The notes beneath the pieces were generated by a model. That model was not told the DNA's origin, searched no databases, and saw only the letters and a program-made list of their open reading frames with translations. A stretch of 64,000 nt of DNA from positions 1 to 64,000 of the forward strand of contig DUNX01000074.1 in the NCBI GenBank assembly GCA_012839115.1, given 5' to 3'. Source of the DNA: Bacillota bacterium. GTDB lineage: Bacteria; Bacillota; UBA4882; UBA10575. A program made the position numbers and the translations under genes. Shown here in pieces: positions 26,095-29,129 of the stretch (within the stretch, counting starts at the first letter, position 1; each line of letters starts with the position of its first letter).

Positions 26095-26146
26095 ATAAGC
26101 CCTTTTTGCGCAGGATGTTCTTAAATCAGGAAAGGAAGTGACCTGT

Positions 26147-27892
26147 ATGGAAATGGTTAAAGTAACCATCGACGGTCGTGAAGTACAAGTACCGAAGAAC
26201 AGCACTATTCTCGCGGCGGCCCGGGCTGCCGGGATTGAGGTTCCCACCCTTTGTTATAACGAAGACCTGGATGTTAAAGGGATGTGCCGGGTCTGTGTGG
26301 TGGAGGTTGAGGGCAGCCGGACGCTGCAGACCGCCTGTTCCCAGCCGGTCAGTGACGGAATGGTAGTTCACACCAATTCACCCCGGGTGCGGCAGGCCCG
26401 CCGGGTCAATGTTGAACTTCTGCTCTCCAACCACCCCCAGGACTGTCTGGGCTGTGTCCGGAACCAGCGCTGTGAGTTACAGACCCTTGCCGATCAGTTG
26501 GGAATCCGTGAACTAAGATTTCCCCGGCAGGTCAAGTCGGAACAGAAAGATATTTCCACCCCGGCCCTGGTGCGGGATCCGTCCAAATGCATCCTTTGCC
26601 GCCGTTGTGTAGAGGTTTGCCACCAGGTGCAGGGAGTAGGGGCATTATACCCGGTAAACCGGGGTTTTGACACCACCATTGCCCCGGCCGGCGGTGTTGA
26701 TCTGGGAGATGTGGCCTGTGTCCAATGCGGCCAGTGCTCTCTGGTCTGCCCGGTCGGCGCCATTTACGAGCAGGACCATACCGAACGGGTCTGGGCGGCC
26801 CTGGCCAACCCTGATAAACATGTGGTGGTCCAGACGGCGCCGGCCATCCGGGTCTCCATCGGTGAAGAGATGGGGCTGGAGCCGGGCGAGGTGACCACCG
26901 GGCAATTGGTGGCCGCCTTGCGCCGCTTGGGCTTTGACCGGGTCTTTGATACCGATTTCAGCGCGGACCTGACCATCATTGAGGAAGGCCACGAACTGCT
27001 GAAACGTTTGGAAAACGGGGAAACCATGCCGATGATTACCTCCTGTAGCCCCGGTTGGATCAAATATATTGAGCACTTTTATCCGGATCTTTTGCCGCAC
27101 CTTTCGACCTGTAAATCGCCGCAACAGATGTTTGGCGCCTTGGCCAAGACCTATTACGCAGAAAAGGCGGGAATTGACCCGGCGAATATTTATGTGGTTT
27201 CCATCATGCCGTGTACAGCCAAGAAATTCGAGTGCGGACGCCCGGAGATGATCGATTCGGGTTATCCGGATGTGGATGCGGTCTTAACCACCAGGGAACT
27301 GGGGCGGATGCTCCGGGAGAACGGGATCAAATTCAGTGAGCTGCCTGAGGAAGAGTATGACGCCCCCCTCGGGATCTCCACCGGCGCCGGGGTTATCTTT
27401 GGCGCCACCGGCGGGGTAATGGAAGCGGCTTTGCGTACAGTTTACGAGGTGGTCACCGGAGAAACCCTGCCTTCCCTGGATTTTACCGCCGTCCGCGGGT
27501 TGGAAGGGATTAAAGAAGCAGAGGTCGATTTAAAAGGGAAAAAGGTCAAAGTGGCGGTCACTCACGGGCTGGGGAACGCCCGCAAATTGCTGGATCTGAT
27601 TAAAGCAGGGAAAGCCGATTACCAGTTTATTGAGATTATGTGCTGTCCTGGTGGTTGTATCGGCGGCGGCGGGCAGCCGATTCCCACGACCAAGGAGATC
27701 CGGCAGAAACGGATCGACGCCATCTACCGGGCGGACGCCGGGATGCCGCTGCGTAAATCCCACGAGAACCCGGCGGTCCAAACACTTTACAAAGAATTCC
27801 TCGGCGAGCCGCTGGGCGAAAAATCCCACGAGCTTCTGCATACCCAATACACCAAGCGCGAAAAGTACCCGGAAAAAGCGGCGGATATGTAG
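26147..27892 (+). CDS. hydA: [FeFe] hydrogenase catalytic subunit HydA/HndD
   Basis: The ATG at 26147 gives 581 aa. In order: N-terminal [2Fe-2S] domain (Cys36, 47, 50, 64), His96/Cys100/103/109 cluster, two [4Fe-4S] sites (Cys148-158 and Cys191-201), and the H-cluster domain. The H-cluster motifs are TSCSPGW (L1, Cys300), MPCTAKKFE (L2, Cys356) and IMCCPGGCIGGGGQP (L3, Cys500 and 504). L1 has Ser after Cys where TSCCPGW is standard and L3 has an extra Cys. It makes or consumes H2 with HydB/HydC. It is the last gene of the operon. Confidence 0.97.
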   Translation: MEMVKVTIDGREVQVPKNSTILAAARAAGIEVPTLCYNEDLDVKGMCRVCVVEVEGSRTLQTACSQPVSDGMVVHTNSPRVRQARRVNVELLLSNHPQDCLGCVRNQRCELQTLADQLGIRELRFPRQVKSEQKDISTPALVRDPSKCILCRRCVEVCHQVQGVGALYPVNRGFDTTIAPAGGVDLGDVACVQCGQCSLVCPVGAIYEQDHTERVWAALANPDKHVVVQTAPAIRVSIGEEMGLEPGEVTTGQLVAALRRLGFDRVFDTDFSADLTIIEEGHELLKRLENGETMPMITSCSPGWIKYIEHFYPDLLPHLSTCKSPQQMFGALAKTYYAEKAGIDPANIYVVSIMPCTAKKFECGRPEMIDSGYPDVDAVLTTRELGRMLRENGIKFSELPEEEYDAPLGISTGAGVIFGATGGVMEAALRTVYEVVTGETLPSLDFTAVRGLEGIKEAEVDLKGKKVKVAVTHGLGNARKLLDLIKAGKADYQFIEIMCCPGGCIGGGGQPIPTTKEIRQKRIDAIYRADAGMPLRKSHENPAVQTLYKEFLGEPLGEKSHELLHTQYTKREKYPEKAADM

Positions 27893-27916: not shown

Positions 27917-27953
27917 AAAGCCCCGGCGGATTTGCCGGGGCTTTGTTTTTTTT
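27917..27953 (+). terminator. Rho-independent terminator of hydrogenase operon
   Basis: AAAGCCCCGGC (27917-27927) pairs with GCCGGGGCTTT (27934-27944) and is followed by G and eight T. Confidence 0.93.
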
Positions 27954-28052: not shown

Positions 28053-28195
28053 AAAAAAGACCACCGCGTAGGTGGTCAATAGTGTAAACTTTGTTTCCCT
28101 TCTCTGACTGCCGGCGTGGTCAAGAGAAGCGAGCGGCTACTCGGTCGCTGGCGCCTGCGCGTTGTAACGCTCCACCTTGAAATGATTTCAAGGTG
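28053..28195 (-). ncRNA. Candidate unannotated small RNA, about 143 nt
   Basis: A self-contained transcription unit lies antisense in the 591-bp gap between hydA and tRNA-Val. Its promoter is at 28230-28202. The predicted RNA starts near 28195 with a perfect 10-bp inverted-repeat hairpin (28194-28174) and continues with a GC-rich multistem centre. Next comes a bulged 10-bp stem with left arm CTTCTCTTGAC and right arm GTCAGAGAAG, then an unpaired GGGAAACAAAG stretch. It ends in a terminator (GACCACC / GGTGGTC, 28077-28059) followed by six T at 28058-28053. No reading frame with a ribosome site is visible. It does not match tRNA, SRP, 6S, tmRNA or RNase P signatures that I can recognise. Confidence 0.6.
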
Positions 28196-28201
28196 ATATC
28201 A

Positions 28202-28230
28202 ATTATAACATATAAAAAAAAATAATGCAA
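28202..28230 (-). promoter_or_regulatory. Consensus promoter for the candidate small RNA
   Basis: On the minus strand, TTGCAT (28230-28225) and a perfect TATAAT (28207-28202) are 17 bp apart within AT-rich DNA. The next minus-strand gene is far away, so the promoter makes sense only for the small RNA. Confidence 0.65.
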
Positions 28231-28373
28231 GGGTTTTTTAAAAAAAATTTTACAGGTGATAAAACCTAGTTTAGCAGGGATTTTTCTTTAATCCACCGGT
28301 AAACAAGGAAAAAATTTTGAAATTATAAATTTTACTTAAACCGGGCAAGCAAAAATTTTTCCCCTCTCATAGG

Positions 28374-28483: not shown

Positions 28484-28560
28484 GGGGGAGTAGCCCAGTT
28501 GGTTAGAGCGCTACGTTGACATCGTAGAGGCCAGCGGTTCGAGTCCGCTCTCCCCCACCA
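28484..28560 (+). tRNA. tRNA-Val (anticodon GAC)
   Basis: A 77-nt cloverleaf folds fully: acceptor GGGGGAG / CTCCCCC, D-arm GCCC..GAGC, anticodon stem CTACG / CGTAG around loop TTGACAT (anticodon GAC, codons GUC/GUU), T-arm AGCGG TTCGAGT CCGCT. The 3' CCA is encoded. Confidence 0.96.
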
Positions 28561-28822: not shown

Positions 28823-28837
28823 CTATTCATAAAAATG

Positions 28838-29129
28838 CAAAGACAAGGAAAGAGAGAGTAAACCGGAGCAAACGGCACAGAGAGGAGTGGGGGCTGCGAG
28901 CATTCCCCGGGAGCCCGGTTGAAGTTCACTCTGGAGTCGCAGGCTGAACAAGCGCAAGAGCGCGGTAAGTAGGCCGGGCCGGAACTCCACCGTTAATGGA
29001 GAAGACGCACATGTGGGAAGACCGGAAAGAACCGGGCTCAATCCTGCATGCTATCGAGGAGAGCCTTTGCCGGCTAAAAAGGGTGGTACCGCGGAGATCC
29101 TTCGTCCCTTATCAGGCGAAGGTTTTTTT
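28838..29129 (+). promoter_or_regulatory. T-box leader of pheST
   Basis: The T-box sequence AGGGTGGTACCGCG is at 29080-29093, followed by the terminator hairpin CCTTCG (29099-29104) / CGAAGG (29117-29122) and seven T. Stem I sequences run from about 28838; a TTC at 28925-28927 in a stem I loop is a plausible Phe specifier. Uncharged tRNA-Phe binding would favour the antiterminator and raise pheST expression. Confidence 0.93.

Follow-up and report, generated by a model that had tools for sequence, protein, structure and literature searches.

The minus strand of the gap downstream of the hydrogenase gene hydA in the window (the whole 64,000-nucleotide stretch of Bacillota DNA analysed here) carries a small RNA gene that, by sequence comparison, belongs to a previously uncatalogued family, and its product probably pairs with a second copy of itself. 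Taken as a whole, the observations are best explained by a new family of stand-alone non-coding RNAs acting as homodimers or oligomers through symmetric kissing loops, an account that we hold to be rather probable. The most informative feature of the RNA is a pair of self-complementary hairpin loops, which an earlier sequence-only reading of the locus had missed.

The unit runs from 28230 to 28053 on the minus strand and consists of a promoter, a 5' hairpin (P1), two internal hairpins (H2 and H3), a 21-nt A/U-rich linker and an intrinsic terminator followed by six T, with a predicted minus-strand transcript of about 143 nt, the size given in the sequence-only reading. Direct reading places the putative promoter at 28230–28202, where TTGCAT (−35, 28230–28225) and TATAAT (−10, 28207–28202) stand at the exact 17-bp spacing previously claimed, with an A/T-rich stretch upstream (28231–28260). 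A generic promoter scan did not list this pair because TTGCAT agrees with TTGACA at only three of six positions. Among relatives, TTGC-type −35 boxes recur at about 17 bp from the −10 box, and comparable boxes with 16–18-bp spacing are found across 40 relatives, for example TTTACA/TATAAT in the distant family f5. We infer a transcript start near 28194–28197.

P1 (28195–28173) is the perfect 10-bp 5' hairpin already noticed, with the loop UCA, and appears both on reading and on folding. A Fur-like 7-1-7 operator in its palindrome, TTGAAATcATTTCAA, was ruled out, since relatives keep the 5' hairpin with unrelated sequence. H2 (28172–28131), supported by the minimum free energy fold and by covariation, is an irregular hairpin of GAGCG/CGCUC, UUAC/GUAG and CGC/GCG pairings whose apical loop, A-GGCGCC-A, holds the self-complementary hexamer L2 (GGCGCC, 28155–28150). 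The bulged 10-bp stem of the sequence-only reading corresponds to H3 (28129–28099), with a bulged U at 28122 and the loop CAC-GCCGGC-A, within which lies a second self-complementary hexamer, L3 (GCCGGC, 28115–28110); reading, folding and covariation agree on this hairpin. The terminal hairpin and its T run were likewise recognized correctly: the putative terminator GACCACCUACGCGGUGGUC occupies 28077–28053, with its stem at 28077–28059 and the six T at 28058–28053. Predicted folding energy for the transcript is −51.3 kcal/mol, against −37.3 ± 3.6 kcal/mol for dinucleotide shuffles (z = −3.9), and in this fold the 5' and 3' ends sit in separate hairpins.

We read 40 full copies across the members, which range from about 140 to 240 nt. 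All 40 have a 5' hairpin of 9–18 bp, the first 10 nt of which average only 37% identity, and in all 40 H2 begins with GAGC or GAGT and ends in a GCUC-like sequence; the H3 hairpin is also present throughout. An A/U-rich linker of variable length separates H3 from the terminator, which was recognized in every copy read except one and mostly has the stem CCACC/GGUGG, as in the window. In the exception (L018, G016:C37), no recognizable intrinsic terminator follows within 190 nt after H3. The linker is long in copy L144, and in some f5 members it is U-rich with repeated G(G)UUUUU runs, compared with 21 nt in the window; such a long U-rich linker might be a stretch bound by a protein (Hfq). The claim of a structured stand-alone RNA is thus borne out by homologues that keep the promoter, the 5' hairpin, the two internal hairpins and the terminator, with covariation.

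To measure covariation, 28 copies were aligned by sequence with MAFFT (alignment A4). Across H2, H3 and the L2 self-pairs, 86% of pairs were standard and 22 of 29 had changed on both sides; within H3 alone the figure was 9 of 11 modelled pairs. The covariation score was 0.347; shuffles gave 0.192 ± 0.012, and sliding the partners gave no more than 0.138. Because the sequences are related, the shuffle count should not be read as a probability, and the structure itself was derived from them. The effect is nonetheless large, and this, together with the slid controls, makes the covariation convincing to us. The strong covariation of H2 and H3 in relatives, a check that the sequence-only reading had called for, shows by comparison that this is a real RNA gene family whose two internal hairpins are maintained by selection.

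The family is confined to one class of Bacillota in the genomes searched. A DNA search of 61 genomes found its core in 18, among them the genome of the window; a covariance model raised the count to 23 of 29 genomes of the class, and a second model added three more from family f5, whose copies were confirmed by reading. Genuine members were thus present in 26 of the 29 class genomes and in 21 of the 22 of good quality (completeness of 90% or more, contamination of 5% or less). Two copies, types A and B, are present in most genomes of the window's family, and one in those of f5. Two overlapping sets drawn from the phylum, of 299 and 397 genomes, gave no genuine copy outside the class in scans whose stricter filters could miss weak relatives; 17 genomes of a sister class gave no match, and plasmid and phage records held no similar sequence. 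Three model hits, L170 (G063), L187 (G017) and L188 (G328), were placed outside the family, as they have neither the pair of palindromic loops nor the promoter-to-terminator architecture.

Known families did not account for the RNA. Rfam 15, which we take to include the OLE, GOLLD and ROOL families, at its gathering thresholds matched only T-box and tRNA over the whole window and nothing on the minus-strand unit; a permissive scan of the gap gave no minus-strand match within the unit, and at 12 loci with divergent members only neighbouring T-box and tRNA sequences matched, none over the RNA itself. No OLE, GOLLD or ROOL homology was detected in the window, the gap or these 12 loci. This agrees with the sequence-only reading, which had assigned no family and proposed the Rfam check. 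The 6S RNA model RF00013 was considered and rejected: it matches another locus (G000:C69:41163-41342), and the architecture here, ending in separate hairpins, differs from the long closed hairpin with central bubble of 6S RNA. 6S RNA is a separate gene in genomes that carry the new RNA; in two f5 genomes (G019:C76 and G022:C62) it lies on the same contig, about 9 kb away. Our literature search found no self-dimerizing small RNA of this kind, nor one near nrdR or sigK.

Evidence for self-pairing comes from the two loops, the only unpaired sequence that is conserved in the RNA. The L2 hexamer is self-complementary in 39 of 40 copies: GGCGCC in 26, GGGCCC in nine, GACGUC in three and GGUGCC, through G–U pairing, in one. 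The sole exception has GACGCC (L108, G018:C417); its ten-base H2 loop, GACGCCGGCG, contains GCCGGC, the palindrome of L3. At L3 itself all 40 copies have GCCGGC, while the flanking bases vary (CAC_A, GAUC_A, AUCAA_A, UCUA_U and others), variation that is seen in f5. When a six-column frame was slid along the alignment through 54 positions, self-complementarity stood out only at L2 (96% of rows) and L3 (100%); the other 52 averaged 3%.

On a tree built without the hexamer, and of weak resolution, L2 changes at least four times, six by parsimony, and all but one outcome is self-complementary. Among random changes of GGCGCC, self-complementarity survives 3 of 18 single ones and 15 of 135 double ones. 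On the strictest count (four events, three kept) the chance is about 1%, and lower with six events, figures to be read with the small number of independent changes and with the G+C-only loops of most members, which make chance palindromes less unlikely. The two central bases of L2 change together although, as direct neighbours, they cannot pair with each other in a single chain, which points to self-assembly. Because L3 is invariant, its palindrome lacks support from covariation and might instead serve to bind something else. Homodimerization through L2 is therefore supported by evolution, and through L3 less directly.

Predicted energies are consistent with like-with-like contacts. Self-pairing is predicted at −12.5 to −7.2 kcal/mol for L2 and −11.7 kcal/mol for L3; an L2 hexamer with an L3 hexamer reaches −6.0 to −0.9 kcal/mol, and that pairing is not conserved. 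An intramolecular pseudoknot between L2 and L3 (GGCG/CGCC) is possible in the window and was rejected because members with GGGCCC or GACGUC do not keep it. Across most genomes of the window's family, L2 reads GGGCCC in type A and GGCGCC in type B; the window's own genus has GGCGCC in both. Like pairs of GGGCCC and GGCGCC are predicted at −12.5 and −11.7 kcal/mol, respectively, and the mixed pair at −6.4 kcal/mol, so that types with different palindromes would each prefer themselves at L2.

Together these observations give good support to a homodimer or higher oligomer as the inferred state of the RNA. In the mechanism we propose, a gene with a promoter and terminator of its own, inherited throughout one class of Bacillota, would yield the RNA; L2 would join the H2 loops of separate copies by kissing and GCCGGC would do so for the H3 loops, with the 5' hairpin and the terminator capping the ends. 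With two self-complementary contacts on each molecule, the product could be either a dimer closed with two-fold symmetry or a polymer in which the contacts alternate. We advance more tentatively, and at slightly less than even confidence, the fuller proposal that the two different symmetric kissing loops yield closed dimers, or linear polymers where the contacts join different partners, and that paralogues diverge by palindrome change until each pairs only with itself. Since nothing unpaired beyond the self-complementary loops is conserved, a weaker suggestion is that the assembled RNA may serve some protein or RNA partner as a scaffold or a platform for binding, and may not be an antisense RNA of the ordinary kind.

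An antisense role is the first of the readings to be weighed against self-assembly. A trans-acting small RNA, probably Hfq-dependent, could use L2 and L3 as seeds that kiss loops in target mRNAs; sequence signals for its own promoter and for a terminator with a U-tail would suit it, as would the standing of the loops as the most conserved unpaired parts and the presence of an Hfq gene in all nine class genomes examined, with which an Hfq-linked role would agree. A changing seed, however, need not stay self-complementary, yet L2 does, and the H3-loop motif elsewhere in the genomes is only mildly more frequent than its reversed control in one case (G002, 226 versus 165) and near parity in the other three; we consider this reading unlikely. 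Still less probable, in our view, is an RNA platform for a sequence-specific protein that recognizes GCCGGC together with the H2 loop, with self-complementarity a by-product of a dimeric protein or of a preference for G+C motifs. The invariance of GCCGGC in 40 of 40 copies between free flanks is what a protein contact could produce, but contact alone does not explain the symmetric double changes at L2 from GGCGCC to GGGCCC or GACGUC.

The remaining readings concern the locus rather than the loops. Several copies lie upstream of a gene on the same strand (a PHP gene or nrdR–nrdD), as a cis-acting leader or attenuator of that gene would, but the same RNA precedes different genes, an extra open reading frame separates it from nrdR in some genomes, and nearly all copies carry their own terminator; in the window it meets only the convergent 3' end of hydA and no gene follows. 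No downstream gene is consistently shared among copies (hydA 3' end, PHP gene, nrdR and others), which marks a stand-alone RNA and leaves the leader very improbable. As for hairpins that fell together by chance in an A/T-rich gap, terminator-like sites are indeed common in the region (six found, 4.9 expected), but conservation across the class with covariation makes this scarcely credible.

In the window, the neighbours are hydA (plus strand, 26138–27892), a gene for a group A6 NADH-dependent [FeFe] hydrogenase that is convergent with the RNA, and tRNA-Val (plus strand, 28484–28560). A strong terminator of the hydrogenase operon (plus strand, 27917–27944) faces the RNA terminator about 110 bp away, and a T-box leader (plus strand, 28837–29112; RF00230, 101.8 bits) precedes pheS–pheT; at locus L003 a tRNA and a T-box also adjoin a copy, on the opposite strand. 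The position beside hydA and tRNA-Val pointed out in the sequence-only reading is thus correct for the window, but it does not hold as a meaningful tie: the hydA-side location is confined to the window's genus and one other, and copies elsewhere adjoin other genes, so the hydrogenase neighbourhood is uninformative about function. Type A copies otherwise lie near a PHP-domain gene or pheST. Type B copies of the window's family lie between a SAM-recycling cluster (ahcY, an amidohydrolase gene and others) and nrdR–nrdD, sometimes with a flavoprotein gene between, and f5 copies are found downstream of sigK, which encodes a sporulation sigma factor, with the order sigK, RNA, nrdR, nrdD in one genome. 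The type B location is likely ancestral, and type A a duplication.

Few natural RNAs are known to self-assemble without protein, and those bacterial examples with a solved structure to date are large. The present family would add an uncatalogued RNA of uncultured anaerobic Bacillota, found in nearly every sampled genome of a class and with clear evolutionary evidence. If the proposal is true, a 143-nt RNA would offer a minimal natural system in which to study the assembly of RNA homo-oligomers by bacteria and the reasons for it, with loop swaps already made by evolution (GGCGCC, GGGCCC and GACGUC).

Several known RNAs share parts of this design. 6S RNA (RF00013) is also stand-alone, of similar length and often present in two copies in these genomes, but it has another architecture and occurs there separately. 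Kissing-loop antisense RNAs, such as plasmid copy-number RNAs, use G+C-rich loop–loop recognition with a complementary partner RNA, whereas the loop of the new RNA complements itself. The dimerization initiation site (DIS) of HIV-1, a retroviral hairpin whose loop holds a 6-nt G+C palindrome with a few unpaired flanking bases, shares the palindromic-loop form; it differs as a viral genome packaging signal with one palindrome rather than two, and there is no relation by descent. OLE, GOLLD and ROOL are likewise stand-alone bacterial RNAs, and in their symmetric kissing loops, seen directly by cryo-EM (PMC12286853), a loop on one chain pairs with its counterpart on another; for the new RNA such an oligomer is a proposal. 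The same argument from covariation of adjacent bases was applied to the symmetric kissing loops of OLE and GOLLD (PMC12286853), and loop palindromes kept by such covariation are what we find at L2. Palindromes switch in OLE L9.3 (GGCC/GAUC/AGCU) and GOLLD L21a, and loops are highly conserved in GOLLD L21b and ROOL L18 (PMC12286853); L2 resembles the former pair and L3 the latter. Compared with these ornate RNAs, which are longer (about 600 nt for OLE) and have structures known from cryo-EM, the new RNA, at about 140–240 nt and with no Rfam match, would set two such loops, one switching and one invariant, in a smaller frame.
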